Below, piece after piece: positions 2,205-45,200 of a stretch of 64,000 bases of DNA. Source of the stretch: Odiellus spinosus (lineage: Eukaryota; Arthropoda; Arachnida; Opiliones; Phalangiidae); assembly GCA_963920705.1 (NCBI GenBank), contig OY987233.1:9535459-9599458 (forward strand), written 5' to 3'. The position numbers and the translations under genes are program-made. The stretch's first letter is position 1; the number at the start of each line of letters is the position of its first letter. Under the pieces are notes generated by a model. It was not told where the DNA came from and made no database searches. It saw nothing but the letters and a program-made list of their open reading frames with translations.

Positions 2205-3535
2205 ATGTCTTCGAAAACTCCTTACACGTTTTTATCTTTGATGCATTTGCTGTGTATTTTAATTACGTTAGAATATTCATCCACCAATCACGATACACGC
2301 AATCGTTTAAAAACACTTCAAGATTATTTCTATTGTTTTCCGGAAGCAGGCAGAAACGATATTGGAGATGAACCAAATATTCATCGTGCCGTTCAACTTT
2401 TCAAGGATACGATGGAAATTCATCATAGCAGTAACATATCGGAAGAAGTTTGTATTGGATGTAATCAGTAAGTAAAGAACCAGGTGTAAGTAATTAAAAG
2501 GGGACACCACGCGGCTAAAATTCATATTTATTCAGATCGGTTTGCTGCGAAACCAATTTGAATATTTTACGTAAATGTGGATTTGAAGATCAAGTCATTG
2601 ACGCCGTGGAAATTTTGACCGCCTGTCATGGAAACCATTTCATTAAAGTCCCAGAAAAGCGTTTTAATTGTATATCCGCGGGTTACTACGCAAGCTACAT
2701 TAAAGATTGTAGTATTTTTCATACTAATCCTCCTCCTATAAGTCCTCCTAATAATTCAACCGGTACTAATATACCAAGCAATGATACGAATGTACCCAGC
2801 AATGATACGAATTTACCCAGCAATGATACGAATCTACCAAGCAATGATACGAATCAACCAAGCAATGATACGAATCCACCTGCAGGTACGAATCTACCAA
2901 GCAATGATACGAATCCACATGCAGGTACGAATCTACCAAGCAATGACACGAATCTACCACGCAATGATACGAATCTACCACGCAATGATACGAATCTACC
3001 AAGCAATGATACGAATCTACCAAGCAATGATACGAATCTACCAAGCAATGATACGAATCTACCAAGCAATGATACGAATCTACCTGCAGATACGAATCCA
3101 CCAAGCAATGATACTAATCCACCAAGCAATGATACGAATCTATCAAGCAATAATACGAATCTATCAAGCAATAATACGAATCTATCAAGCAATGATACGA
3201 ATCTACCAAGCAATGATACGAATCTACCAAGCAATGATACGAATCTACCAAGCAATGATACGAATCTACCTGCAGATACGAATCCACCAAGCAATGATAC
3301 GAATCCACCAAGCAATGATACGAATCCACCTGCAGATACGAATCCACCAAGCAAAGATACGAATCCACCAAGCAAAGATACGAATCCACCAATTAATGAT
3401 ACGAATCCACCAAGCAATGATACGAATCCACCAAGCAATGATACGAATCCACCAAGCAATGATACGAATCTACCAAGCAATGATACGAATCCACCGGCAG
3501 GTACGAATCTAACAAGCAACGACACGAGTCCATAG
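2205..3535 (+). CDS. Secreted protein with NDT-rich glyco-repeat tail
   Basis: Exon 1 is 2205-2467 and exon 2 is 2536-3535, spliced within a glutamine codon, giving 420 residues. Residues 1 to about 27 are hydrophobic and look like a signal peptide. A cysteine-bearing N-terminal region of about 170 residues (motifs CIGCNQ, VCCE, KCGFE, TACHGN, FNCI, KDCSIF) precedes a repeat tail built from the heptapeptide SNDTNLP/SNDTNPP, repeated over thirty times with PADTN variants. Each NDT is an N-glycosylation sequon, so the tail should be densely glycosylated and mucin-like. The cysteine region resembles small secreted helical families, but I cannot name one. A polyadenylation signal lies just after the stop near 3615. 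The gene converges tail to tail with IQCA1, with 147 bp between stop codons. Confidence 0.8.
2770..3530 (+). repeat. 21-bp coding minisatellite (SNDTNLP)
   Basis: The unit is 21 bp, close to AGCAATGATACGAATCTACC plus one base, and encodes SNDTNLP. About 35 units occur, with occasional shortened 15-bp units (PADTN, PAGTN). The array stays in frame throughout. Long open frames on the other five frames are by-products of the periodicity. Confidence 0.9.
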
Positions 3536-3682
3536 TCAGCAACCTCGACGAATCCTCCAACAGCCTCGACGAATCCAAATATTAATGGGCTTAATTAAAT
3601 AATCCTCAGTTTTACAATAAACCGTAATAAATTGTAATACTGCTTGTTTTATTTTTTACTAATAAATTGCGATTGTCAAAAT

Positions 3683-6600
3683 TTATTTTAAACTTTCTTC
3701 GTTTTTAGCCAAAGATATCTGCTCGTTAATTTGGGCTACATTTTGTTTCTTTAATAATTTGAGACGTTTCTTTCCCATTGGGGTTTTGCTCAACCAATTC
3801 TGCAATTATTTAAATTCCCAAAAATAAAATAGTTTGAAGATCAAAATAAAGTTTGCACCATTACCTGAAACATATCTTCTTCTTTCTTATAAACTGGATC
3901 GTATTGATTTAAAGCATTCACAAAATCAGACAAGGTCAATGGATATCTTGACATCTGACTTACTCGTCGAGTTGTAAGGACCTATTTTTAAAATTAATTC
4001 GATTTTTAACGAGTTTTAACGGTCCTTAATTAAATTTTACCTGTTTAACAACTTGACATATGACTCTAGAAGAATATCCATCCGAGAGTTTGGTGAGAGT
4101 ACTTGAATCTAATTCGGACGTGACTTCACCTTGGTTGCGAACAATCGCTTCTTTCCATAATACTAAATCAAGGATTTTAGTCTATTACCGCAACCTGAAG
4201 TGTTAGATTTAATGACTTACATTTTCTGTGACCATAATCAGGCCTTGGCACGTATATAATCTTCTGGTAAGTGGAACAAATCGATTTTTGATCGCTCTCA
4301 AATGGATAGTCCGAAATACCAAGTAATATGATACGGTCGTCGGAGGTTATTCCCCTAACTAGTTTTGGCAAATCTTTCTTCAATCTTCTAGGGTCCGTCT
4401 TTAAAATCAAAAGTCTATAACTTTATTCTATAAAAGTAAACAACGCCACATAGCTTAATACTATCAGAAAAGGCCCCCCTACAGTTTTGTTTCATAGCCC
4501 ATCACTTAAAAATAGCCAAAAAATCATCACCCTTGTCTGGCTCGTGTGATTTGGACTCTTCCTCGATATTTTGAGTCGTGAGAGATAGGCTGAATTTAGG
4601 CGGGCCGTGCTTGACTATATTGTCTTCTCCCTCCCAACTCCGGAATGAATTTCTCCGTAGAGTGGCGCTTCCGATTTCATTATTTACACGGCGACTGCAA
4701 CCGCTAGTGTCTAATAGAATCCTGCAGAATCTGCTAGTATATTTGCCCGGGCCTTTGCTGATAGTATTAAGCTAAGGGGGCGTTGTTTACTTTTATGGAA
4801 TAAAGCTCTAGACTTTTTTACCCTATCAGATTTAAGAACCTTCTTGATGAAGGTTTTTTCGGCTTCGTCGATAAAAATAATCGCAGGTTGAAGAAGTCTA
4901 GCTACTTTGTTAACCAAATGCATTAGCATACTGAGTCCGGCTTTGCCTTGATATTTGCCAGCGATGTTTATGGCTGATAAGTCAAAACAAACGGCGCTAG
5001 TGGCTTGGCATATTTCTTTCAAAAGCAATCTTTTACCGTTTCCACGTGGACCGGTCAGTAAAATTGATCGGACCAGAGGACATTTCTTCCGAATTATTTC
5101 ACTACCTATGATACAATTGGTTCACAGATAACCAATAAGACTCGGGGTTTTTGAACCATCTTGACCATACTAAGGTTGAAATAAGAATTTTAACTTACTA
5201 ACCTAATGGAAGCGTGGCTATTTCTTTCAGACTTTGTTGTATATCATAATAACTAGGATTTTCAACAAAACCTTCAGCTATGAAATCATGATGCCCAACT
5301 TTGTCGTAAATAAAAACTTCTTTGTCAACATTAGGAAACTCTTTTATGATTTCTTGTTGAACTAATTCCTCAACTAATGATTCCAAAGTTCTGAAATTAC
5401 AATTGTTATTTTAACTAAAACGTGAAACGTCAAGGCTCGAATAAATTGGGCCCAGTGTCTTGGAGAAAAATATTGGAGATCATAATTATATGATCCAAGA
5501 ATCAAGATTATCCAAAAATAAAGGGTAATTTTCTGATATTTTGAGTCCCTATAAATGAGGCCCGGAACACGTGACCCACCTTAATCCGGGTCTGATGACG
5601 TAATTTAAAGGGTGTCGTCGTACCTGTCTGGTGTGAGGTCTTTCTCTTTTTTGCCTTTTTTGGGTCCACGTTTAGTCTTTTTACTTTGTTTGGATTTTTT
5701 TCCTTTTCTACCTTTGTCTTTTTCCATCGCCTTCGAATTTGAAATTATTTTTAATTTTTCCCTTTTATTTTTCAAATTTTTAAATTATCATAATTTTCTC
5801 GCCTGTCTTAAAATTTCCAAATCGTTGGTAATAATAATATTACATTGTTCTTTAATATCTTCTTCAAAATTCGACAATTCGCTTTTTTCAATTTCTCTCG
5901 AATTAAGTTCGAAATTTGTTTGATCAACTAAATCATTTCCCCAAATTTCTAAAATTAAATTTTAATTAATCGCAAAGTTGTAACAAAACCGGGTTAATTC
6001 TTTTCTACGGACAATACCTTGAAATTGTTTAATTTGACTTTTTAAAATATCAACGAATCTTGATGGTTTTGGTTTAGGTGGAGCTATCTATTGGAAAATA
6101 GATAAACATGTCACTTTGCCTAAGGATCTAGATCCTAAATTGTCCATTATAAACCAGTACAACAGCAGTGCAAGTGTTATTCTGTACAATAGTCCATTGG
6201 GGCAAGTACAATTCCGTACAAGAGTTCATTAGAGAAAAATATACGAGTATATTAAGGACCAGTACAAGAGTCCATTGAAGACAAGTACAATTGTACATAA
6301 TAGACCATTGTGGACAAGTACATTTGTGAACAAGAGTCCACTGAAGGCAAATACAATTGTGCAAAGAGATTGCATTGGGGACAAGTACAAGAATCTATCG
6401 GGTTCAAGTGAAATTATGCACAAGAATTCATTGGGTTCAAGTACAACTCTGCACAAGAATCCATTGGGTTCAAGTACAACTCTGCACAAGAATCCATTGG
6501 GTTCAAGTACAACTCTGCACAAGATTCCATTGGGTTCAAGTACAACTCTGCACAAGAATCCATTGGGTTCAAGTACAACTCTGTACAAGTATCCATTGGG

Positions 6601-9600: not shown

Positions 9601-12600
9601 ACTGTTTAAAATATCTTAAAATTCCCTGACTTTTTAAAATATCTTAAAATTCCCCGACTTTTTAAAATATCTTAAAATTCCCTGACTTTTTAAAATATCT
9701 TAAAATTCCCTGACTTTTTAAAATATCTCAAAATTCCCTGACTTTTTAAAATATCTCAAAATTCCCTGACTTTTTAAAATATCTCAAAATTCCCTGACTT
9801 TTTAAAATATCTTAAAATTCCCTGACTTTTTTTCAAATTCCCTGACTTTTTTGGTTCATTTTCAAATTCCCTGACTTTTTTGGTTCATTTTCAAATTATC
9901 TGACTTTTTTGGTTCATTTTAAAATTCCCTGACCTTCCCTTCTTTGCCTGACCTATGGCAACCCTAGAAGGGGTATGATGAGGTCATGCGTAGTAACCTC
10001 TACGTTTCATCCTCATTTCCTTGTCTGATTCTGTGGTTGTCTACTCCCTTCGGAGAAGGGTCAAAATAAACGCAATATGTCTATTGTAGATACTAAAACA
10101 CGATAAAATGTGTTGACTCCCCTTTATCACCAAAAAACGACACTGAATCTTTCCCTAAATACGGTCAATCGGTTTTTACAAACGCATAAAAACGTTTCAG
10201 GCGAGAAATTCGACAATCTTATTGTTTCCTACTATAATTAAAATGCGACCAAATTAAAGGAAACGTAAATACTTAAGAAATATTAATAACACTTGAAAAA
10301 CCTTTTAGGAAATATAAAATTAAAGTAGACGTAAGAAACCCGACTCGATTGAGAATAACAACAGCGAGGGAAGAAAACTCTATTGGAAAATAAAATACTT
10401 TAACCAGAGTAGTAAAGGGAAACTTGAGCGATTCTTGACGGGTATCAGTAGTCTGTAAGCTGGTGGGCAAAAGCAAGCCTGAGACAGTTCCCCACGAACA
10501 TTTCAGAAATGTATACCATGAGGTATCTAAGTCCTAAGGAAAATTAAGTCACGCCTACTTTAGTTCCAATCTCAACCGCTAGAAAAAGCTTTTTCTAAGT
10601 CAGTCGTGGTCGAGTTTTTGACGTCACAACTGCAGACCAATCATAATACGGCTAATGTATCCTTGTTGGTATGATTCTCTGAATTTCCCTCGTACTAAAT
10701 TTGATGGGGAAAATTTTGACTAATATTTTAGTACGTTTCCTTTGATTACTATTTAATATACAATTTTGTTACATAAGAGAACATACGTCACTAGTTCTTG
10801 AGCCAAAGGAGGGAAGTGGTTAATAAATGATGAACTTTGAACCTAAATTACTTACGGTTTCTTGAGGAATGTCACCGTACCGAGAAATTACAGAATCAAA
10901 TACTGTTCTTCTCTCTTTGGCGTCAGCATCTCGAGCATCTCTGAAGTACTTCGGAATTATCAAGTCCAAATCCTCCTGCAATAGAGATAGTAAGTATACT
11001 TTGAAATATAATTAAAAACATAGAGAGTGGGAACTACTAAATCATTTGAATCTTTCACCAAGTTTTTATTTTGGAAATTTGAAATTAAAAGGACCAGGCA
11101 TGGGTCAAGAAATGGATTTATAATTTTTTGACCCAAGGATTAGGTATCCTGACTTCGAGTATTTCAATTTAAACTGTTTTAAGGGTAGATTATATACAAC
11201 AAAAAGAATTTCCAATAAAATAAGTGTTTGCCATTTTGAAATGGAATTCAATATATAATCAGATAACAAAGTTAATCAAACGAGTTTAACACCACCACTT
11301 AAAGACCACTTAGACTAGACAATTTCTAAATATTTCAAGGGAAACTTGGAGCTAAAAACAGCTTTTGAATTTATTTACTGAATCACCGCACTGAAAAACG
11401 TATTCCAGAATTTTTTCGGAATTTTTAGACACGGTTTTGGTGTTTAAATTAATTTCTTGTTAAAATTTGAATAAAAGTAATCGGGCCAATCATATTACTT
11501 CAGGCTCCAAATTTCCCTTTAAGCCTAGGTACGTTGATAACTATTGTAATTTCTCACCATTAAAAATTGGTTTTTGAGAGCATCTTCTGAGACATTAGGA
11601 CATTCGCTATAAACGGTGGTTACAATTTCGCTCTTTAATTCCAATATTCGCCCCATGGTATTTTCCAATATATTTTGAACGCATTGTCTTCGTTGGGGGT
11701 GTTGAATTTCTTCTAAAATGCCACTGATTTCGTTGACGCATTTCAAATATCGGAAATATAAGAGATATCTCTGAAGAAAATATAAAATACAAAAAGTAGA
11801 TTTATTTAATCGTAAGATTGAACAGTTTAAAAAACTTTAAATATATTAATTTAAGTGATACTTTTGATATAATTATTTTTGTTCGAGTGATTGGAGTAGT
11901 CTTTGGATTATACTTAAAGGGAGAATGCAACCTAATAACAAGTGATTTTTTATCGATTCCTTAACGTTTAAATAGGCCTAATCCACCGACAAAAAGTTTA
12001 TAAAATAAATATTAAACTAGAAATAAATTTAAAACTTACTCGGAAAATAGGCTTAGCGGGATTCATGGAGATCAGCTGAATTGACTCGGTGTAAGGTCTA
12101 GCGATTAATGAGCAAAGACAGGTCGTTCACGCAAGATCACCACCTGACTTACGATTGGTCGCTAGACATTTACGTGAAGAAATCAGGATCTCCATGAATC
12201 CCGCTAAGCTTATTTTCCGAGTAAGTTTTAAATTTATTTCTAGTTTAATATTTCTTTGTAATTTTATTTACCAGTGGATTAGGCCTATTTAAACGATAAT
12301 GAATCGATAAAAAAATCACTTGTTATTAGGTTGCATTCTCCCTTTAAGAGAAATGATTAAACTAAATAATTAGTTTGAAAAAATTTTAAAAAAAAACTAA
12401 TTTAAAAGAAAAGCTAAACACTTAAGAATAAATAATAAACTATATTAAAATAAATAGAATTGAAATAAGACAATTATGTAGACATTAAGCTGGAAATAAT
12501 GAGCAAATGTTTAGTTTAAAAAACGTTGTAAAAATTAAATATTTCCCTTACGGCGAAAAAAATAAAAATAAAAAATAAAATAACAGGAAATATATTTTAA

Positions 12601-12672
12601 TTTCACCTTTTCCGAAGGTTGATATTCGTTAAAATCTTCGTCGTCACAAATTACTTCTAGATTTTGAATCAT
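3683..12672 (-). CDS. IQCA1: Dynein regulatory complex subunit 11 (IQ and AAA domain protein)
   Basis: Seventeen exons in phase: 12607-12672, 11558-11770, 10856-10975, 8626-8844, 7802-7873, 7490-7722, 6894-7041, 6723-6858, 6018-6083, 5803-5948, 5624-5730, 5203-5390, 4822-5105, 4221-4398, 4041-4162, 3865-3981, 3683-3799. They give about 843 residues, near the length of vertebrate IQCA1. The N-terminal half is helical, with IQ-type segments (VIQIHERARQGQSRAR; VWRGYRTRQYVKMHR). A lysine-rich linker ends KKEKDLTPDR, typical of this family. The AAA domain has a P-loop-like GPRGNGKRLL and FIDEAEKTF in the Walker B position. DRC11 is part of the nexin-dynein regulatory complex of motile axonemes, so this species should have flagellated sperm or cilia. 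The start exon is short and an extra 5' exon cannot be excluded. Exon 10/11 requires a GC-AG intron. Confidence 0.88.
4409..4817. mobile_element. MITE-D copy forming a whole IQCA1 intron
   Basis: Inverted termini of about 40 bp (AAAAGTCTATAACTTTATTC at the left, the same inward sequence at the right) enclose a roughly 330-bp body containing GTAAACAACGCC and GCTTAATACTATCAG in both orientations. Further copies lie at about 17694-18096 and 23818-24190. The host intron is 4399-4821, so only 14 nt of it are not MITE-D. No transposase is encoded. Confidence 0.85.
6128..6650. repeat. Minisatellite of about 33 bp in an IQCA1 intron
   Basis: Units share CCATTGGGTTCAAGTACAAC followed by TCTGCACAAGAAT. 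About five units between 6440 and 6600 are almost identical, and the flanking units on the left are strongly diverged. The array fills most of the 6084-6722 intron. Open frames across it on both strands are repeat artefacts. Confidence 0.85.
7889..8172 (+). mobile_element. MITE-A copy in IQCA1 intron
   Basis: Full-length MITE-A with the AGCTGCGTTCATACTAGGCC end at the left. It begins 15 bp from the acceptor boundary of the IQCA1 exon at 7802-7873. It abuts a fold-back C fragment on its right. Confidence 0.8.
8176..8622. mobile_element. Fold-back C fragment plus 130-bp companion repeat
   Basis: About 8176-8450 carries the fold-back C internal blocks (AAACTAGAAATAAATTTAAA, ATAGGCTTA, GGATTAGGCCTA). 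From 8495 to 8622 runs a sequence starting TTCCCTAACATTTAATTCAA that recurs at 35735-35870, also directly after a fold-back C end. The right edge lies about 3 bp from the splice donor of IQCA1 exon 8626-8844. Confidence 0.7.
9245..9960. repeat. Minisatellite of about 29 bp in IQCA1 intron
   Basis: Units combine TTTTTAAAATATCTTAAAAT with TCCCTGAC, repeated over 20 times in two blocks. The blocks are interrupted at about 9440-9535 by a variant segment (TTTGGTTCATTTTCAAATTC) that returns at 9830-9930. The 8845-10855 intron holds no exon that I can see. Confidence 0.85.
9960..10850. other. Intron interior without recognisable features
   Basis: This is the rest of the intron between IQCA1 exons 3 and 4. 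I see AT-rich unique sequence with no coherent exon, RNA gene or element family. The segment from about 10735 was copied into the duplicated block beginning near 16440. Confidence 0.5.
11344..11517. mobile_element. Fold-back B, internally deleted copy
   Basis: It begins CTTGGAGCTAAAAACA and contains the family blocks ACGTATTCCAGAATTTTT and TTTAGACACG followed by GGTGTTTAAATTAATTTC. It ends close to an inverted GGCTCCAA. It lies in the intron between IQCA1 exons 2 and 3. Confidence 0.65.
11916..12346. mobile_element. Fold-back C, complete copy
   Basis: Long terminal inverted repeats start TAAAGGGAGAATGCAACCTA at the left and mirror this at the right. The left arm continues through ATAGGCCTAATCCACC and AAATAGGCTTAGC, and the right arm is its near-complement over about 150 bp. 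The short middle is unique. It lies in IQCA1 intron 1. Other copies or fragments are at about 8176, 35334 and 38376. Confidence 0.8.
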
Positions 12673-12942
12673 AATATAATCGACAATAAATATTCAAAGT
12701 AAAACCCTGGTTAAATTCTGAATATTTCCTCAAAATAAAATTCACCTTAAAACGCCCAGAAAAACAAAAGCATACATTTGTTTTTAATTCTACCATGTGG
12801 TTGTTTCCATGGTTACCTTGAGTTACATTGATTCGCTCTCTTTCGGCTTGGAGAGGTATTATCTATATATAATCTACATCACAAGCAACGTGGTTCGTTC
12901 CTTACTTCCTTCATGCATAAATTAATAGTGCCACTATTAATT

Positions 12943-13275
12943 AAACTTGGGAGCTAAAAATGAATTTATTTTCGGTATCACCGTGCCAAGACACGTATTC
13001 CAGAATTCTTACAGAATTTTAAGACACGTTTTTAGTGTTTAAATTAATTTATAAAGTTTGGTAAAATTTGAAAAAGATTAAAAGAATATCCTGGCGTTTA
13101 ATGCCCAAGTCATTGGCCATCAAATGCCGGCCTAGTCTTTTAATGTTGAGACAAGACTTTACAAGCGCTGTAGATGGCTGAAATAATATGATTGGTCCGA
13201 TTTTATACTTACTTTTATTCAAATTTTAATGAGAAATTCATTTAAACACCAAAAATGTGCTTTTTTTGGCATTAT
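12943..13275. mobile_element. Fold-back B truncated by a minisatellite
   Basis: The left arm (CTTGGGAGCTAAAAATGAAT) and centre (TTTAATGTTGAGACAAGACT) match the 36.3-kb copy. The right arm stops in the middle of the block that normally reads TTTTTTGGCACGGTGAT, where the 13.26-kb minisatellite starts. Confidence 0.7.
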
Positions 13276-16200
13276 GGTCGCCATTGGAAAGATGAGAAAC
13301 AAGATGGTCGCCATTATAAAGATGAAAAACTAGATGGACGCCATTATAAAGATGAAAAACAAGATGGTCGCCATTAAAAACATTATAAACAAGATGGACG
13401 CCATTAAAAAAAGATGAAAAAAAGAGATGGTCGCCATTAAAAACATTATAAACAAGATGGACGCCATTAAAAAAAAGATGAAAAACAAGATGGTCGCCAT
13501 TAAAAATATTATAAACAAGATGGACGCCATTAAAAAAAGATGAAAAACAAGATGGTTGCCATTAAAAACATTATAAACAAGATGGACGCCATTAAAAAAA
13601 AGATGAAAAACAAGATGGTCGCCATTAAAAATATTATAAACAAGATGGACGCCATTAAAAAAAGATGAAAAACAAGATGGTTGCCATTAAAAATATTATA
13701 AACAAGATGGACGCCATTAAAAAAAGATGAAAAACAAGATGGTTGCCATTAAAAACATTATAAACAAGATGGACGCCATTAAAAAAAGATGAAAAACAAG
13801 ATGGTCGCCATTAAAAACATTATAAACAAGATGGACGCCATTAAAAAAAGATGAAAAACAAGATGGTCGCCATTAAAAACATTATAAACAAGATGGACGC
13901 CATTAAAAAAAGATGAAAAACAAGATGGTTGCCATTAAAAACATTATAAACAAGATGGACGCCATTAAAAAAAGATGAAAAACAAGATGGTCGCCATTAA
14001 AAACATTATAAACAAGATGGACGCCATTAAAAAAAGATGAAAAAAGAGATGGTCGCCATTAAAAACATTATAAACAAGATGGACGCCATTAAAAAAAAAG
14101 ATGAAAAACAAGATGGTCGCCATTAAAAATATTATAAACAAGATGGACGCCATTAAAAAAAGGTGAAAAACAAGATGGTTGCCATTAAAAATATTATAAA
14201 CAAGATGGACGCCATTAAAAACATTATAAACAAGATGGACGCCATTAAAAAAAGATGAAAAACAAGATGGTCGCCATTAAAAACATTATAAACAAGATGG
14301 ACGCCATTAAAAAAAGATGAAAAACAAGATGGTCGCCATTAAAAACATTATAAACAAGATGGACGCCATTAAAAAAAGATGAAAAACAAGATGGTTGCCA
14401 TTAAAAACATTATAAACAAGATGGACGCCATTAAAAAAAGATGAAAAACAAGATGGTCGCCATTAAAAACATTATAAACAAGATGGACGCCATTAAAAAA
14501 AGATGAAAAAAGAGATGGTCGCCATTAAAAACATTATAAACAAGATGGACGCCATTAAAAAAAAGATGAAAAACAAGATGGTCGCCATTAAAAATATTAT
14601 AAACAAGATGGACGCCATTAAAAAAAGATGAAAAACAAGATGGTTGCCATTAAAAACATTATAAACAAGATGGTTGCCATTAAAAACATTATAAACAAGA
14701 TGGACGCCATTAAAAAAAGATGAAAAACAAGATGGTCGCCATTAAAAACATTATAAACAAGATGGACGCCATTAAAAACATTATAAACAAGATGGACGCC
14801 ATTAAAAAAAGATGAAAAACAAGATGGTTGCCATTAAAAACATTATAAACAAGATGGACGCCATTAAAAAAAAGATGAAAAACAAGATGGTTGCCATTAA
14901 AAACATTATAAACAAGATGGACGCCATTAAAAAAAAGATGAAAAACAAGATGGTCGCCATTAAAAATATTATAAACACGATGGACGCCATTAAAAATATT
15001 ATAAACAAGATGGACGCCATTAAAAAAAGATGAAAAACAAGATGGTTGCCATTAAAAATATTATAAACAAGATGGACGCCATTAAAAAAAGATGAAAAAC
15101 AAGATGGTCGCCATTAAAAACATTATAAACAAGATGGACGCCATTAAAAAAAGATGAAAAACAAGATGGTCGCCATTAAAAATATTATAAACAAGATGGA
15201 CGCCATTAAAAAAAGATGAAAAACAAGATGGTCGCCATTAAAAACATTATAAACAAGATGGACGCCATTAAAAAAAGATGAAAAACAAGATGGTCGCCAT
15301 TAAAAATATTATAAACAAGATGGACGCCATTAAAAAAAGATGAAAAACAAGATGGTTGCCATTAAAAACATTATAAACAAGATGGACGCCATTAAAAAAA
15401 ATATGAAAAACAAGATGGTTGCCATTAAAAACATTATAAACAAGATGGACGCCGTTAAAAACATGAAAAACATGATGGTCGCCATTAAAAACATGAAAAA
15501 CAACATGGTCGCCATTAAAAACATTATAAACAAGATGGACGCCATTAAAAAAAAGATGAAAAACAAGATGGTTGCCATTAAAAACATTATAAACAAGATG
15601 GACGCCATTAAAAAAAAGATGAAAAACAAGATGGTCGCCATTAAAAATATTATAAACACGATGGACGCCATTAAAAATATTATAAACAAGATGGACGCCA
15701 TTAAAAAAAGATGAAAAACAAGATGGTTGCCATTAAAAATATTATAAACAAGATGGACGCCATTAAAAAAAGATGAAAAACAAGATGGTCGCCATTAAAA
15801 ACATTATAAACAAGATGGACGCCATTAAAAAAAGATGAAAAACAAGATGGTCGCCATTAAAAATATTATAAACAAGATGGACGCCATTAAAAAAAGATGA
15901 AAAACAAGATGGTCGCCATTAAAAACATTATAAACAAGATGGACGCCATTAAAAAAAGATGAAAAACAAGATGGTCGCCATTAAAAATATTATAAACAAG
16001 ATGGACGCCATTAAAAAAAGATGAAAAACAAGATGGTTGCCATTAAAAACATTATAAACAAGATGGACGCCATTAAAAAAAATATGAAAAACAAGATGGT
16101 TGCCATTAAAAACATTATAAACAAGATGGACGCCGTTAAAAACATGAAAAACATGATGGTCGCCATTAAAAACATGAAAAACAACATGGTCGCCATTAAA

Positions 16201-16300
16201 AGGATGAAAAACAAGATGGTCGCCATTAAAAATATGAAAACAAGATGGTTGCCATTGGAAAAATGAAAAACAAGATGGCCGCCATTGAAAATATGAAAAA
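13265..16300. repeat. 3-kb minisatellite with two alternating units
   Basis: Two related 30-32 bp units alternate: one contains GATGGTCGCCATTAAAAACA and then TTATAAACAA, the other GATGGACGCCATTAAAAAAA and then GATGAAAAACAA. The dimer is about 62 bp and occurs roughly 45-50 times. A larger period of 681 bp is present: rare variants at 14976 and 15401 recur at 15657 and 16082. Edges are degraded (CATTGGAAAGATGAG at the left, CATTGGAAAAATG at the right). Met/Ile/Phe-rich open frames across it are artefacts. Confidence 0.95.
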
Positions 16301-16439
16301 CCACGAGTGCTGTTGAAAAGCAAGATACAATTACACGGGGTTCAAAAACTAGATGAAACCAGCCCGTAGGGCGGTGGTTCAACTGAATATAAGGAAAATA
16401 CTAATTTTTATTAGTTGTATAAGTGCTCCGAGTTTTAAT

Positions 16440-18672: not shown

Positions 18673-20330
18673 ATGAATTTCCAAAGATTGGTACTAGGTA
18701 TAGTCCTATCATGCGTGTTGGGTCTTATATTCGACATTACCATCGCTCAAGACACTGAAGAAGTCACACTAATCACTAAAAATGACGCTTACTACAAAGC
18801 GAATTTGACGTGGACATTGAAGAACTTCTTCACCTTGTCCAAAGAAGATTGGAGTATTCAAAGCCCGTATTATCCAGCACGAACCACAAATGGAATTCAA
18901 TGGTTTCTCATCGCTGTTCAATCATCGCCTCGTAACTCCAACAAAGACTTTGACTTGTATCTCAATCAGATCAACGTTTCTCGAAGTATCAACGTACTTG
19001 ACGTGTCTCTGGACTGCGCCGTCATCGATGTGAAAGGAAATAGAAGATTAAGGAAAGCCAAACCAAGATACAACATCCTAAAAGAAGGAGTTGGAACGCC
19101 GTATATTTTCTACCCGTTTCTCAGTCGTCAAACTTTGATTGAAAATAAAGAGGAATTAGTACCAAAAGGACATTTAACCATTCAATGCATCATAGAAGGA
19201 TTTGTTACGAAACAGAATGATTCCGCGGACATCTTGGTTAGAACCGAAGAAAAGTTAAAGGTATATGTTTTTTGGAAGTTGAAGGACTAGGGAACATGGC
19301 TTAATTTAGGCCAAGGATCCTGTTTGTAAGAAGGATCAGAAGTCAGAGAGAATAGATAAGCTACCACACTAGCATTTCTTAATCGATTTGAAACGGTTCA
19401 AATCAAACCGATATTCAAATCGCCCGCCAGGAATCGATTTAAGCCTCTCGCGTTATCTTTATAATCGATTTATCGTAGCTTCATCTATCGGTTGTTGAAA
19501 CCGAATCGGTACAAAACTAGTTCCCGAAGCAGTTTCGTGAAATCGAATTAAATCGATTCGAGGAAAGACGGTTTCCCGTTCACACGACTCTAGCGAAACG
19601 TTTTGAAACGATTCCAAGGCCTAGTATGAACGCGGCTATAGAGTCGTCATGATTGGGTCATGCGCAGTATAGAGTTTATTTCTTTCGATTCCGTCAAGAA
19701 CAAACGGGTATTAAGCGTAGAAATTCTAGCTCTCTCTGAACAATTCTTACATTTCTTGGAGAAAATTTGGTCTCTATTTTTAACAATACCCTGTAACTAA
19801 AGATTACGAACGCGAGCCTTTATTACTTCTGATACTCTTTTTTGTTGCCTAATTTGAAGACTGAACCAATCAACTGCGCTATGGAACAAGCGCGTGACAC
19901 TTTACAACGACTGCAATCACGAGATTTTGTCTACAAAAGTGACGTCACTGTCAGTACAAATGGTAGAGTGTTCCTAGGTCACAAGGAAATTTTATCAGCC
20001 AGATCTTCGTACTTTAAAAACGCATTGATCAACTCTACCAAACTCGATTTAAGTAAAGACTTAAACGCGATTGAACTTGGCGATTTTATAGATTTCATTT
20101 ACAAAGCTAAAACCACTAATTTGGCTGTTAGTTGTTACACATTGTATAATTTGGCAACGAAATACGATTTGGGTTGTTTAAAACAAACTTGCGAAGATAT
20201 TCTAATTGGGAGCATTAATTACAACTCAGTTAACAAGCTGTTAAACTTGGTGGAGAGTAACGGAGCTGGTAAATTAAAGAGAGCAATTTTTGATTGTTTA
20301 GCCGATGACCCTAAGTGTCTTCCTAAATAA
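18673..20330 (+). CDS. Secreted MATH-BTB protein, paralogue 1
   Basis: Two exons, 18673-19260 and 19860-20330, join in phase 0 (donor GTATATG, acceptor after AATTTGAAG) for 352 residues. A signal peptide (about 1-25, ending DITIAQ) precedes a MATH domain (about 33-185: LTWTLKNFF, GIQWFLIAV, DFDLYL) and a BTB domain (about 210-320: DVTVSTNGRVFLGHKEILSA, SYFKNAL, DFIDFIY) with a short BACK-like tail. MATH-BTB proteins are normally cytosolic or nuclear Cul3 substrate adaptors. This one has eight cysteines after the signal peptide, at positions matched in the neighbour, and NLT/NVS/NST/NDS sequons, arguing for an oxidising compartment. The 599-bp intron contains a MITE-A copy. Without splicing, a 205-residue MATH-only product would result. 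Confidence 0.82.
19359..19637 (-). mobile_element. MITE-A copy in the MATH-BTB intron
   Basis: Inverted orientation, starting AGCTACCACACTAGCATTTC and ending CTAGTATGAACGCGGCT. It makes up nearly half of the 19261-19859 intron that the intronless neighbour lacks. Confidence 0.82.
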
Positions 20331-20471
20331 TAAACTTAAAGAGAAATTAGGTATTTTTTTTAATGTAAAATACCAAATATTTGAATAAAGTTATGAATGT
20401 TTCAAATATATGAATATTTGTTCAATGTATTTGGGCCTGAAAGAAAATAAATCGAAGCTACTACTCTATAG

Positions 20472-20735
20472 AGCTGCATTCGATACCTTGGAATCGATTT
20501 AAACAATTTAAAAACGTTTCGCTAGAATAATGCGAAACGGGAAACCGTCTTTCCTCGAATCGATTTGATTCAGTCTCTCGAAACTGCTTCGGGAACCAGT
20601 TTCGTACCGATTCGATTTCAACAAGCTACGATAAATCGATTTATGAAGATAAGGCCTGAGCACACACTTAAAACGATTCCTGGCGATTTGAATATCGGTT
20701 TGATTTTACCGTTTCAAATCGATTAAGAAAAGCAT
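20472..20735 (+). mobile_element. MITE-A copy between the MATH-BTB genes
   Basis: Carries the CTGCATTCGATACC variant of the left end and the TTTCAAATCGATTAAG right end. The remainder of 20331-21277 is AT-rich sequence with no other recognised feature and presumably includes the promoter of paralogue 2. Confidence 0.75.
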
Positions 20736-21277
20736 AGATGGAGTCGGCATACCGTAATATTTCCTTATTCGAATTAATACAGTATAGGGCAAAGCGATGT
20801 CGATTCAATATTGAAGAACATAATGTTACTTGATTTTCTATACACCAAATAATTGCAAAATATGAACAAATATTAATAATCTAAAAATATATTTTAAAGC
20901 TGCTCGGAAAATAGATATTGGATTATCCTTAATGCTGAATCATTCCACTATAATTTAGAGTTAAAATTTCCAGCCATGACTCAGCTAATCTGAATCTCCT
21001 ATTTTTTAAAACGTAAAGATCTTATTTCCATTTTATTGTTCGAAGTTTACTGGAAGCCCTGCTGAAATTTATGCAAGTAATTTAATATTACAAATCAGAC
21101 CAAATAAGTCAGTTCCGTGTGAAATTAATTCACCTGTTGATTCCTGATAAAATACATTAAAAAAATACCTTTCGCAACACTTTATCACTACGCAGATAAA
21201 ATAAAAAACCTAACGAACAGTTGCTTCTTATTCCCTAACGAATTTCGCATCTTCACAGTTGTAACAAATAGTGCAAG

Positions 21278-22321
21278 ATGAAGGTCCAAGTTGTAATAAC
21301 CACGATAGTTCTGATCTGTACTTTAAGCGCGTACGCTAAAGAAGTAACTGAAACTATTACAGTTATAACCGAAAACTTGGCCCATTACCGAACCGATATA
21401 ACTTGGATCATAGAACACTTCGAAGACTTGCCATTCGTAGCCCCACCAGCGACAACTTACTATAACCCGAGCATTACGAGTCCCGCTTTCCCAGCCAATA
21501 GCAAAGCGGGAGTTCAATGGAGACTCATAGCTTATCCTTCAAATGATCGTCATGGAAGCGCGGATTTCAACCTAGTCGTCGAATCGGTAAAGAAACCTTC
21601 GAACAGTACGTTAGATGCGAGAGTTACTTGCGGAATTGTGGATAGAAACGGAAAAATATTGTCTAAACAAAGTGAAGAAATTAATCTAAACGTTTACTTG
21701 TTTCAACTGGCGACGCGCGAAGAAATTAAACTTAAAGCCGTTGATGTCTTACCGGAAGGTCACTTGACGTTGAAATGCAACATAGTGGGAACTTTAACCA
21801 TCGGAGATAAGAGTCACGTCACGAGTGAAGAACTCACCAATAAAAAGATACCAATTTCACAATGCGCCAATGAAATTGCTTTGGATACTTTAGACAGGCT
21901 TAGCCGTTATAATTACAACTTGCGAAAGGATGGCGTAATGATTGCATCAGGAACCCGTTTGCAATTCCATAAAGACATTCTTTCTAACCGTTCACCACTT
22001 CTTAAAACGGCATTGGATAAAGCAACCTATCTAGATTTTGGAAACCTCTTAACTTCTCAAGAGTTGAAAGATTTTGTGACGTTCTTGTACACAGGAACGG
22101 CGGAAAATCTTGGAGAATCTTGTAAAAATTTGTACCCATTTGTCAAGCGATACTACCGTCAAGATTGTTTGCTATCTACTTGCGAAGACGTCTTCATCGG
22201 CCAAGTACGAGAAGAAACCGCGTACGAATTACTTCGTTTCAGTTTAGAGAGTGGTATTACAAATTTAACAAAAGCAGCCGCGACTTGTTTAAAACAAGGA
22301 TCTAATTGTAACAATGCTTAA
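21278..22321 (+). CDS. Secreted MATH-BTB protein, paralogue 2
   Basis: A single exon of 347 residues. The signal peptide is clear (MKVQVVITTIVLICTLSAYA). A MATH domain follows (ITWIIEHFED, GVQWRLIAYPSN, ADFNLVV, GHLTLKC), then a linker and a BTB domain (DGVMIASGTRLQFHKDILSN, LTSQELKDFVTFLYTG) with a C-terminal helical tail. The mature chain has exactly eight cysteines: two in MATH, one in the linker, three in BTB and two in the tail, each with a counterpart in paralogue 1. Sequons NST, NRS and NLT are present. The start is fixed by the signal peptide, and the stop is followed by AATAAA near 22341. The function of an extracellular or luminal MATH-BTB protein is unknown to me. Confidence 0.85.
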   Translation: MKVQVVITTIVLICTLSAYAKEVTETITVITENLAHYRTDITWIIEHFEDLPFVAPPATTYYNPSITSPAFPANSKAGVQWRLIAYPSNDRHGSADFNLVVESVKKPSNSTLDARVTCGIVDRNGKILSKQSEEINLNVYLFQLATREEIKLKAVDVLPEGHLTLKCNIVGTLTIGDKSHVTSEELTNKKIPISQCANEIALDTLDRLSRYNYNLRKDGVMIASGTRLQFHKDILSNRSPLLKTALDKATYLDFGNLLTSQELKDFVTFLYTGTAENLGESCKNLYPFVKRYYRQDCLLSTCEDVFIGQVREETAYELLRFSLESGITNLTKAAATCLKQGSNCNNA

Positions 22322-39256: not shown

Positions 39257-42200
39257 ATGCAAAACATGGAGTTGACATTTCGAGAAATTCTGAGCATTTT
39301 GATATTTTTGGCCCAATTAATAAGTAATTGCTCAGAGGCTAACAGAGGTAAGTTAATTTTTCTTCATCATTATTTGGATAAACCCTATATCCTTAGGAGA
39401 TTACAATTAATTTCAAACATTCTTATCTATGTCGCTGATAAATCTGTTCAAAAATTGGAATACGTATCATGGGTATAATTGATTATAATTGTTACTTGCT
39501 TGGGTTTAATCGATCGAATCATTACTCAATAGGTTTTAGTCCATCTAATCATTACTCAACAGCTTTTACTCAATCTAATCATTACTCAATCGATTTAAGC
39601 GATCTAATCGTTACTCAATCGATCTAATCGTTACTCAATCGATCTAATCGTTACTCAATCGATCTAATCGTTACTTAATCGATCTAATCGTTACTTAATC
39701 GATCTAATCGTTACTTAATCGATCTAATCGTTACTTAATCGATCTAATCGTTACTTAATCGATCTAATCGTTACTTAATCGATCTAATCGTTACTTAATA
39801 GATCTAATCGTTTCTTAATCGATCTAATCGTTTCTTAATCGATCTAATCGTTACTTAATCGATCTAATCGTTACTTAATCGATCTAAACATTACTCAATC
39901 GTTTTATGTTAAATCTAATCATTATTCTATCGGTTTTAAAATATGTCATCATTACCTCATCGATGTTAATAGATCTAACCATTACTTAATCCATACTTAT
40001 CGATATAAACATTACTTAATCGATGCTAATCGATATAAACATTACTTAATCGATGCTAATCGATATAAACATTACTTAATCGATGCTAATCGATATAAAC
40101 ATTACTTAATCGATGCTAATCGATATAAACATTACTTAATCGATGCTAATCGATATAAACATTACTTAATCGATGGTAATCGACCTAAACATTACTTAAT
40201 CGATGGTAATCGACCTAAACATTACTTAATCGATGGTAATCGATTTAAACATTACTTAATCGATGGTAATCGATTTAAACATTACTTAATCGATGGTAAT
40301 CGATTTAAACATTACTTAATCGATGGTAATCGATTTAAACATTACTTAATCGATGGTAATCCATCTAAACATTATTTTAGTTGACGATAATCGATCAAAT
40401 CATTACTCAATCGATGATAATCGATCTAATTTTTACTCAATTTTTTTTTTATCAATCTAATCGTTAATCAATCGAATTTAATCGATCTAATCTTTACTAA
40501 ATAAAAAATATCTTTTATTTCAGACCCAAGATTGACCTGTTACTACTTTTCATGGAAGAGATACACCGTGAATCCGATGGCTTATTTCCCTCATGACATT
40601 CCCACTCAATTATGCGACGAAATTGTTTATTATCGAGCGGAACTCAATGAAACTACTTACACCATAGAACCAGCTGACAAACACGCTGATATTAATGAAG
40701 GTTAGCCCTAAAAATTACTTAATTATCTAAAAAAAGTCATTGTTTATGGTTTTAACGTCACAGGCGATATGCTCAAGGTGACTGACTTAGCATCTCCTAA
40801 ACGCAAAGTTATGTTGGCTATCGGTGGATATCGTAAATCTTTGGATGGATTTTCTAATCTAAACTCGCCGACTAACAGAGAAATATTTATCAACAGTACT
40901 GTGGAGTTTTTAAAAAAGTATAATTTTCGAGGTCTCGTTATCGATTGGATCGATCCAAACAATGAGCGGAGTGAAATCTCCGTTAACGATAAAACTACCT
41001 ACGTCCTTCTAGTTAAAGTAAGTTTTAAATAAAGTCTTATCACTTTATTACATAAAAAACAACCCCGTAGCTTAATACTATCAGCAAAGGTCCGGAAAAA
41101 TGGTTCTCCAGCATTTAACAAATGTGAGGATAGGACGAAAACTTCAAGAAACCTCACTAAGACATTCTTTATAAGATTCGTAAATTTTTAAAACCAGTAA
41201 AGAGCATTTTTCTGTCTTAACTCAAAACGTTTTAGTTTGGACAAAATCGGGAATAATTGGCTGGAAGTTATCTTACTTTTGACAACATAAACTAAACTTA
41301 AATACCATATTGTTAACTTAAGACACCACTGCCAAACTTAGCCATCCCAATAACCCTCAAAAACTGGGCATAATTTTTACTCAAAAGCCAAGGCTTAAAA
41401 ATGACCTAACGAGAAATTTAAGGAACGTTCATCAAATTGGTTAACTGATTCAATTCACAGTAAATGTATTCGTTATATTTCGAATAACAGAATCTTTGAT
41501 TCCATTTCCACGCTTTCTGAGATTTGGGCATCTCAGAGCCTTAACTCTATTGACCCTTTTTCGTAACCATGATATTTAATTATCTTGCCAAAGCGGCTAT
41601 TTTCATTAGATAAGTCATTCTTAAAAAAATAACATAAACTTACATTAGCCTTCTTCATTATGGTATATGGATCCTCATAAGCCTTTGTCATCTTGCTACA
41701 ACCGAACCAGTTGAATGAATATCCCAATCCCAAGAGGAAGACACGTTTCGTTAAATTAAGCTAGTCACGATTAACACTTGAGTTCTTATGCTTAACAACG
41801 CGTTAGTCAACACTTCTAATCAACACTTTACGAACTTAATTAAATACGAACCATAAATTCTCATTAAGAACGAATTTTCCACACTTTGCACCACACCTCG
41901 AGCTCTTTTTCTATGATTTTGTTTATCCAACTCGAGTTATTTACCTAATTTAATCCAAACTATCAAGTTAAAGGGGTTTCGTTGCTACTCCGTGCTCATC
42001 AAGTGGTTATATTTGCGTATTTATATCAGGACTCCACAAAGTGTGATGGTTTTCAAATCGCCCAAGGCTTAACCGATCTCTCGCTTTTTCATAATGTATA
42101 AAGCTGTATTCAATACTCCCTCTTCAACGCCTGATGCGTTCAAAACTATCACTACTCTCAATCGGACTCCCCCACTCAATACTACTTCAGACATTGTATT

Positions 42201-45200
42201 ATCCACAACAACCACATCTAGTACCCAATCTACTGGCTTGGACTCTCTTTCTCCGCTTTCAAGTGATGATCTACCCGCTCCAATTAACGCTGATCACTCT
42301 AGTCAACCAACAACCCCCCTAACTTTGGATCCGCTACCTATCCTCAAGATTTCTAAACGGTCAAAATCTTCTCGCCTATCCTGTACCACTCGATCTCGTG
42401 TCTCAGTCACCTCACAAAAGCGCAAAACTATCAAAAGTAAACTTACACCTATTACTAAATCTACCACCCTGATCTCTTCTAGCTGCTCAGTCTGTACCAA
42501 GGATGTCCTAAAAGAGCACAAGGCCCTTCTCTGTGAACTTTGTGATCTCTGGTGTCACGCTATCTGCGTTAAAGTCTCTGATGAATTATACTCAGCCCAC
42601 GTCAAGTCGGGGTCTGAAAATTTCGTTTTTTCTGCACGGAGTGTCGTGACACCGGCTCTTCACTACTCGCTTCAATCTCGAAGCTCTCTGATAACCTTTC
42701 TATGCAAAATGAACAGCTCACTACCATCTCTAATACTTCAATGAAACTTGAGACTTCACTAGAAGCTCTTAACCTTCAAACTGCAGCCCACTCTGATCTC
42801 TTATCCGCGATGAATACAAAAGTTCCTATAGACGATCTCTACGACAAATTTGAAGCCCAAAGTAAGGCTATCGCTGCCCATAGTAAGGCCCTGGAAGACA
42901 TTATGCTCACCCATAAGACTTATAGTCTGGAACTGGTAGCGTTGCGTCAACAAGTAACTGAACCAGTCTTTCTTCCTACTATTACCGCCAGTTTAGCGGA
43001 ACTTCAAACGAAATTACTGTCTCAAAATGAAGCTCTTTCCTCCCACGCCACGTGTTCTGCTCTACCCAATGACGTAGTAGAGTCCCTTAAAAATAATTAT
43101 AATTCTCTTACCTCTAAAGTTGATTCTCAGGCAAAAATAATCTCACATCTCGAAGAGCAACACTCTATTATTTCTCACCCATCCTCGGACAACAACACTA
43201 TCCTCTCCAACCACAATCCCCCTTCGCTAAACCGTATATTTGATGAACGTTTTGAGATCAACGAACGTAAATTTAATGCAATCATTTTCAATGTTTTTGA
43301 CGACGACAATCCAGGAGAAGATGCGAAATGGATCTTCGAAATCCTTCAATCCATAGGTTTCTCCTTCTCTGACTGCCAGAAACTCCAAATCGACCGCTTG
43401 GGCAAATTTCGCCCAGACGACGGTAAATACCGACCTCTTCGTATTAAATTCACCAAAGTGTCACATCGTCAACTCTTTGTTAAAAGAGCCTCTGAGCTCC
43501 GCCGTGATCCCTCAGACAGGTTTGACTTTCCTGTTGCCCCTGACCGTACTGTCCAACAGCGCAATACACGTCGACTATTACTAGACGAACTCCGCCGTAG
43601 GCGTGCTAACGGTGAATCTAATCTTTTCATTAAACAGGGTGTTATATCTACGCGCTCTAGCCCACCCTCTGACACTCAAAATTGTGCTTTTGACACTACC
43701 CTCCCTCCGCAAAACCACTATGTAGACTTTAACGACGACTACTCTACTTCCTCGCAAACACACCCAAAACTGTTGCTCAAACCATCAACCACAGCGTCTG
43801 CTCATGCTCAACCTCAACAGCCAATCACGACAGTTTTTCTTCCACCGTTTCATCTACAGCAAGCAGTCTCTCACTCATCCTCAAAAAACTTCTAAAAGAC
43901 AAAACTCCACCAACCATGCAAAACCATATCACTCACTCCACCGTCTCTACTCTCAATTGGTCCCCAAACTTCTACGCTACCCCCTTCGTTCCCACCCCAA
44001 CCACCTACCTCCATAGCCTTGACCTTATCCTGCCTAAAATAGTAGTTCCATCCTATTCCAACACTGCTCACCCCCAAAGTTCCCGTGGTCTACTTACTAA
44101 CGCGCACAGTCTCAGCCATTCCACCAAGTTCCCAGAACTCAACAATTTGGTGAAACATTACGCCCCGCTTTTTGCCGCAATTACTGAAACCTGGTGGACT
44201 GTTGAATATTCGACTTGTGAATTCTTCATTCAAGACTACACTATTTATCGATGTGATCGTGAGAACATTGTAGGCGGTGGTGTGGCACTTTATGTGTCTG
44301 ACATGTGCCCCTCGCGTCAGCTCTATCCACTAGATTATGGTTTTAGCCCCGATTGGACTGACTACATTGGTTTGGACACACTAACTGTCCTTGTTATTCT
44401 TAGAAACTCTATAATTATAATAGGTCTAATTTATCGTTCCCCATCCTACGACAACCATACTCAATTAACAGACTACCTATGTGCCTTAACTAAATATTGT
44501 GATAGCAACAAAATACTACTGTTATTGTTGGGTGACTTTAACTACCCCAAAATTGATTGGTTAGATTACTCCTACCGTACAGGAGCCTGTCCCCAAACTA
44601 GGAGCTTTCTAGACACTGTAACGCGAGTTAATCTTTCCCAATTCATTTCTTTTCCTACCCGTAGTGGAGGATTAAACACTGTTGATAATACTCTGGACCT
44701 CATATTGAGCACTGACCCAAATTTAGTATTCAACCCCTCCCCACTGCCACCCCTGGGGTCTAGTGACCATTGCACTGTACTTTTCTCTGTCAACCTCCCT
44801 AACTCTCCAACTTCCCACAGACCAATACTTAATTTCTTCAAGGGTGACTATACCGCATTTGCTTCGTACCTCGAAGTAGTATCTTGGGACACCTTGTTCC
44901 AGACTACCTGCCCTGATACCTTGTGGTACTATTTCCAAACAGTCATAAATTTAGGTATTAGTGCTTTCGTCCCATACCGTAACCCTAGTAAATTTAAAAT
45001 TACCAATCCGCGTACTGTACGCTCTCGAACTATGAAATCTCGAGCCTGGCGTAAACTATCCGGTTCTAAAAAGCGCCATGCTTCCCAACGAACCATTTCC
45101 AAAAACTTAGATAGTTATCGCCAGGCGCGAAACGCCCATACTAAACATATACGCAATTTAAAACGCAACGCGGAAAGCAACCTAGTTAAACAAATATCTT

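Follow-up and report, generated by a model that had tools for sequence, protein, structure and literature searches.

MATH-BTB proteins are known mainly as Cul3 adaptors, which raises the question of whether the same architecture can serve in the secretory pathway. The locus considered here holds two tandem same-strand MATH-BTB genes, 33% identical to each other, which begin with signal-like N-termini. They lie at positions 18,673–22,321 of a 64,000-nucleotide stretch of the genome of the harvestman Odiellus spinosus (GenBank assembly GCA_963920705.1, contig OY987233.1, 9,535,459–9,599,458, forward strand), hereafter the window. An original prediction, made from the sequence without database searches, proposed that both proteins are secreted, carry exactly eight matched cysteines and function away from Cul3. 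Our analysis leads us to consider it about 60% probable that the pair belongs to a clade of MATH-BTB proteins that derives from SPOP, entered the secretory pathway, was cut off from Cul3 and likely acts as an extracellular binder.

Domain architecture and N-termini of the pair

The presence of MATH and BTB domains in both paralogues is borne out by three observations: BTB lies above the Pfam cut-off in both chains (gene 2: 21.2 bits against a cut-off of 20.5), a profile built from the pair retrieves full-length SPOP at 3.3e-17, and the structure model of gene 2 matches the SPOP MATH domain. By Pfam itself, MATH stays under the cut-off in gene 2 (18.7 bits against 32) and is unlisted for gene 1, and NCBIfam gave no match for the two proteins submitted. 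SPOP is the nearest solved relative of the pair, and both genes have the arrangement that defines the SPOP-like fold family, MATH then BTB in one chain. The peptide groove of SPOP is, judging from a MAFFT alignment, largely replaced in the pair's MATH domains: of the five groove aromatics (Y87, F102, Y123, W131 and F133), two are retained in gene 1 and none in gene 2.

Both N-termini are signal-like by hydropathy and by a von Heijne matrix (columns summing to 161), in line with the predicted signal peptides. The best 10-residue Kyte-Doolittle means are 3.01 (gene 1) and 3.10 (gene 2), and the matrix gives 5.5 after residue 17 and 3.0 after residue 25 in gene 1, and 3.3 after AYA-20 in gene 2, the usual threshold being 3.5. 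Only N-terminal scores were counted, because an internal strand of SPOP reaches 6.2 by the same matrix. Across the genome, genes labelled signal-bearing score at least 3.3 (10/10) and genes labelled signal-less at most –0.2 (13/13), although the labels were our own, set from the N-termini, so that these scores show a separation and are not an independent test. The genes L019 and L020 have an in-frame hydrophobic stretch ahead of the first Met, without a start codon.

The several N-glycosylation sequons that had been read as a mark of secretion did not hold up, and we rejected them as evidence for the pair: the two chains have 4 and 3 sequons against shuffle means of 3.4 and 3.4, and none of the seven falls in a common column. 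A different picture is seen in L028 (1448-2797; C2:4869848-4871197), a member of the wider family, in which a tandem GFDNTT-type repeat within the MATH region brings the count to 22 against a shuffle mean of 7.5, with 19 sequons at six-residue spacing.

Cysteines, loop residues and phylogeny of the wider clade

We searched the window's own genome (443 Mb), in which BTB matches number 117, many of them in signal-less MATH-BTB genes. Gene 2 as query gave 26 matches and L003, a gene on contig C2, gave 14; with exons merged, the latter correspond to ten genes with a six-cysteine motif and one signal-less relative (C2:32.9 Mb). The ten are spread over three contigs: C11 holds the window pair, C6 one gene in two frames, and C2 a cluster of four genes at 4.86–4.87 Mb (L028 with its repeat, a gene read as two exons, and two in one frame) plus single genes at 1.55, 4.51 and 4.58 Mb. 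Eight can be read as single chains, namely gene 2, gene 1 after splicing and the six C2 genes in one frame, and their frames are open in every case.

These eight were aligned with two signal-bearing genes from outside the clade (L033 and L036) and 13 signal-less MATH-BTB genes, the latter hand-picked from the 117 BTB matches and not a census. Left out of this 23-gene alignment were L027 (2258-2776 joined to 3524-4177 as a single gene) and L035 (two frames), both assigned to the clade by eye, where the same cysteine motifs were seen; L034 (two frames); L018, L021, L022 and L024 (partial or near-copies); L038, L040, L041 and L042 (divergent); L043–L046 and L055 (BTB, no MATH seen); L049, L051 and L058 (near-kin of kept rows); L054 (no start before MATH); and L057 (same gene as L017). 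On a midpoint-rooted tree from which signal and cysteine columns were excluded, a branch with support 100/99 separates the eight clade genes from the rest. The view that the pair's architecture is conserved rather than accidental is strengthened by a ten-gene family, a monophyletic group of eight and a cysteine core present in all eight.

In the pair, the mature chains have eight cysteines each and every one stands in a common column; with 105 of 315 mature columns identical, the hypergeometric probability of all cysteines being shared is 1.3e-4. As a separate curiosity of composition, no valine is common to both mature chains (18 in one and 16 in the other, counting aligned columns), though a third of the columns are identical. 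The rule of exactly eight is confined to the pair: the clade core consists of six cysteines (118, 167, 196, 282, 297 and 302 in gene 2 numbering), and in the six one-frame C2 genes the count is seven (4/6) or eight (2/6), the two C-terminal cysteines are missing and an extra one stands two residues before 118. Cys337 and the cysteine following it occur only in the window pair among the eight clade genes.

The complete core is found in 8/8 clade genes and 0/15 other SPOP-like genes, and is retained across the clade at 23–71% identity. Position by position, the 15 non-clade genes have cysteine 118 in 2, 167 in 5, 282 in 11 and 302 in 10, while 196 and 297 are absent from all of them (one paralogue has a cysteine two columns from 196). 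Conversely, the cysteine that directly precedes the BTB histidine is present in 13/15 of the others and 0/8 of the clade. The diagnostic cysteines on this alignment are 297, 196 and the 118 plus 167 pair. Human SPOP has cysteine at three of the eight positions of the pair in phmmer and hmmsearch alignments (presumably C159, C184 and C289). These two programs set the linker cysteine on the VPEC motif of SPOP, whereas MAFFT with SPOP alone misplaced it; SPOP C361, which MAFFT put opposite Cys344, was discounted since that match spans a long gap. The distribution suggests that part of the core is older than the clade and that 118 and 297 were added to complete pairs, the predicted bonds being 118–167, 282–302 and 196–297.

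Apparent loss of Cul3 contacts is the second trait of the clade. Crystallographic work on KLHL3, SPOP and A55 describes a hydrophobic-x-Glu motif (φ-x-E) in the α3-β4 loop as a key Cul3 contact; the M233E change eliminates Cul3 binding by SPOP and the equivalent change in A55 merely weakens it (PMC3616122, PMC6484134). SPOP Asp278, in addition, is described as bonding Cul3 Tyr125 (PMC6484134). On our alignment, uncertain as it is in this loop, φ-x-(D/E) is present in 0/8 clade genes, all of which have a gap in the φ column, vs 12/13 signal-less genes, which have M, L or Y at φ and E or D two residues on (L037 is the exception). The two non-clade signal-bearing genes read P-E-E and A-D-E and stand outside both counts. 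The window pair has a shortened loop, and in the C2 genes the loop can scarcely be aligned. Asp at the SPOP 278 position is likewise found in 0/8 clade genes (three have Glu) vs 9/13 signal-less ones. The proposed check on Cul3-contact residues points the way that was anticipated, by an alignment that is open to doubt in the loop. After BTB, where SPOP-type adaptors have their 3-box helices, two helices are predicted in both window chains.

Sequence constraint points in the same direction as the open frames. Among five close C2 paralogues, dN/dS is below 1 in all ten pairs, for MATH (0.29–0.56) as well as BTB (0.33–0.75), and the clade proteins look like working proteins. Helices like those at the C-termini of the pair are missing from the six one-frame C2 genes in the 23-gene alignment, and BTB is below the Pfam cut-off or unlisted in all six.

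L033 (2113-3144, – strand) and L036 (2133-3173, + strand) have strong signal-like N-termini without the six-cysteine core and pair up (90/81) within the signal-less genes of the tree. From this placement, an export signal was probably gained a second time, which makes the move look repeatable. Searching viral and prokaryotic contig collections by tblastn confirmed no relative, a result that is uninformative on spread among animals.

Interpretation, precedents and alternatives

Taken together, the clade looks like a conserved secretory re-tooling of a known architecture. In the mechanism we favor, the signal peptide would direct the chain into the endoplasmic reticulum (ER), where Cys118–Cys167 would staple MATH and two bonds among Cys196, 282, 297 and 302 would hold the BTB core, and the chain would be exported as a soluble protein. 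BTB of the window pair probably still folds and dimerises, and the pair would not act as ubiquitin-ligase adaptors because the loop by which SPOP grips Cul3 is changed. MATH would most likely bind an extracellular partner, with BTB supplying bivalence, in a scaffold or recognition protein.

Several known systems can be set beside the pair. SPOP has no signal peptide and carries φ-x-E at M233, whereas the pair has a signal-like N-terminus, a shorter motif-less loop and cysteines gained at 118 and 297, and lacks a basic tail like that of SPOP. A clear SPOP orthologue with MEE (L047:61-1233, – strand) is also encoded in the same genome; it is a single intronless open frame and possibly a retrocopy or an intronless locus. 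LGALS3BP, also called 90K or Mac-2 binding protein, is described as a secreted, ring-forming glycoprotein with disulfides in its BTB crystal structure (PMC6026745; PDB 6gfb). It resembles the pair in having a BTB domain in a secreted protein, but it consists of SRCR, BTB and IVR/BACK without MATH, and the pair has no SRCR (BTB and MATH are the only domains that Pfam lists at E up to 1). By MAFFT, one of the five LGALS3BP BTB cysteines aligns with Cys302 of the pair and another lies two columns from 282. We rejected it as a direct relative, since blastp of its BTB against the window BTBs listed no match. Meprin α offers an example of MATH working extracellularly in disulfide-linked oligomers (PMC9581967), and meprins combine an astacin protease with MAM and EGF and have no BTB, while Pfam lists no astacin domain in the pair. 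Among the literature matches listed, none named a secreted protein in which MATH is followed by BTB as in SPOP; most subscription papers lie outside that scope, and the result is no proof of absence.

A further precedent is BTBD17, a signal-peptide BTB protein with the order BTB, BACK and a TRAF/MATH-like domain. The pair differs in having MATH ahead of BTB and in showing no BTBD17 model at Pfam E up to 1; a weak match to the BTBD17 Pfam TRAF model (0.035, under the cut-off) appears in the signal-less paralogue L032.

Several points weigh against the secretory, Cul3-free reading. The signal calls rest on hydropathy and the matrix rather than SignalP, gene 2 at 3.3 is slightly below the usual threshold of 3.5, and of the two multi-exon clade members one scores 5.2 and the other, on C6, –2.0 despite a hydrophobic N-terminus; start codons of the genome relatives were picked by hand, with an earlier in-frame Met in L030. 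Sequons are at chance level in 9/10 signal-bearing genes. The gene 2 model has a mean pLDDT of 53.7 (low confidence), and gene 1 is identical to SPOP at two of the five groove aromatics. Matched cysteines alone are no proof of disulfides, given those shared with SPOP and the presence of 282 in most non-clade genes, and the odd seven of four C2 members means that at least one cysteine is unpaired or intermolecular. For some pairs dS is above 1, and dN/dS reaches 1.18 in one comparison of signal peptides. In the loop, Tyr-Leu-Asp at 251–253 of gene 2 would fit φ-x-(D/E) if the alignment were shifted. Quite apart from the reading itself, neither domain is new outside the cell, as LGALS3BP (secreted disulfide-bonded BTB) and meprins (extracellular MATH) show. 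Finally, secreted 90K is reported to recruit Cullin3 via its BACK domain (PMC12645945), so export does not strictly exclude Cul3; the idea of a fold placed where Cul3 cannot be met is supported by the missing φ-x-E and Asp278 and weakened by this example.

A bolder version, to which we give less than even odds, is that an animal lineage built an extracellular binding or scaffold system from the SPOP fold. It would consist of secreted disulfide-linked MATH-BTB oligomers in which BTB assembly serves a purpose unrelated to ubiquitin, for example in gland secretions, in matrix or in recognition. Chains would then be joined covalently through the odd seventh cysteine present in most C2 members, and the tandem repeat of one member would carry some twenty potential N-glycans.

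Alternatively, the proteins might enter the secretory pathway but reside in the ER, Golgi or granules and bind clients there via MATH, in the role of chaperones or quality-control adaptors of the lumen. The same signal-like N-termini and cysteines would be expected of such residents, but neither chain of the pair has a KDEL-like C-terminus (they end in CLPK and CNNA), and we regard this as unlikely. We are more doubtful still of an exported effector delivered to another organism or individual in saliva, venom or seminal fluid, possibly acting on its ubiquitin machinery: duplication-driven expansion with divergent sequences and a predicted export signal would suit it, yet pairwise dN/dS is below 1, and a Cul3 hijacker would be expected to keep φ-x-E, which all eight genes lack.

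Ordinary cytosolic SPOP-like adaptors, with a hydrophobic N-terminus that arose by chance or is removed in alternative transcripts, seem very improbable. They are the familiar background of this genome, with its many signal-less MATH-BTB genes among 117 BTB matches; cysteines at three of the eight positions are shared with human SPOP, and each gene of the pair has, after the upstream stop and before the ATG, an AG that might in principle be a splice acceptor. However, hydrophobic N-termini run throughout a monophyletic clade, six cysteines are kept at 23–71% identity and φ-x-E is missing. The gene 1 ATG has an in-frame TAG 24 bases upstream, gene 2 has its own upstream stop, and in both chains the next Met after the start lies beyond MATH, with none between the start and the MATH end. 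A start that removes the signal is therefore unlikely, short of an upstream exon spliced in near the ATG. Decaying duplicates, relaxed and drifting to pseudogenes, are the least credible explanation, since the weak BTB and missing C-terminal helices of the six C2 members are outweighed by open frames in 8/8, retained cysteines and dN/dS below 1 in all ten pairs for both domains.

If our preferred reading of a secreted, Cul3-free clade is right, it would document the wholesale move of a fold into the secretory pathway, and it would offer a natural experiment on which parts of SPOP, the dimerising BTB or the peptide-binding MATH, can serve without ubiquitin. It also provides a sequence signature for searching other animals: signal peptide, Cys118/167 and Cys282/297/302.

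Gene coordinates and other features of the window

Gene 1 encodes 352 amino acids (aa) once its single intron is added. Coordinates of both genes are collected in Table 1.

Table 1. Features of the MATH-BTB pair, in window positions
Feature	Positions	Strand	Details
Gene 1 exon 1	18673-19260	+	residues 1-196; signal peptide (predicted) and MATH; MATH via the pair's profile aligned to SPOP
Gene 1 signal-like N-terminus	18673-18747	+	25 aa; predicted cleavage after 17 or 25
Gene 1 intron	19261-19859	+	599 bases, GT..AG, phase 0; one inverted-repeat-element copy inside
Gene 1 exon 2	19860-20330	+	linker Cys, BTB, two C-terminal helices (predicted), stop; model mean pLDDT 73.9
Gene 1 BTB domain	19938-20210	+	residues 223-313; Pfam PF00651 3.3e-11
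AATAAA 3' of gene 1	20384-20389	+	
In-frame TAG before gene 2	21269-21271	+	9 bases before the gene 2 ATG
Gene 2, MATH-BTB with signal-like N-terminus	21278-22321	+	one exon, 347 aa
Gene 2 signal-like N-terminus	21278-21337	+	20 aa; predicted cleavage AYA|KE
Gene 2 MATH domain	21374-21799	+	residues 33-174; contains Cys118, Cys167
Gene 2 BTB domain	21938-22195	+	residues 221-306; contains Cys282, 297, 302; Pfam PF00651 3.5e-4
Gene 2 C-terminal helices	22220-22315	+	residues 315-346; Cys337, Cys344; secondary structure from low-confidence model

No convincing third copy of the pair was found by tblastn of both proteins against the 64-kb window. Two inverted copies of an element of about 260 bases (19372-19628 and 20477-20733) flank exon 2 of gene 1, one of them within the intron; their arms are 78–100% complementary and the element looks like a miniature inverted-repeat transposable element (MITE).

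Elsewhere in the window, a non-LTR (long terminal repeat) retrotransposon occupies 43733-46936 and has a long open frame that encodes endonuclease and reverse transcriptase (RVT_1 5.3e-32), and the open frames ahead of it at 42073-43895 may represent a candidate ORF1. Long simple tandem repeats, open in several frames on both strands, are found at 13330-16400 and 49077-49561, the first of which overlaps a block of strong AT skew at 12001-16000.

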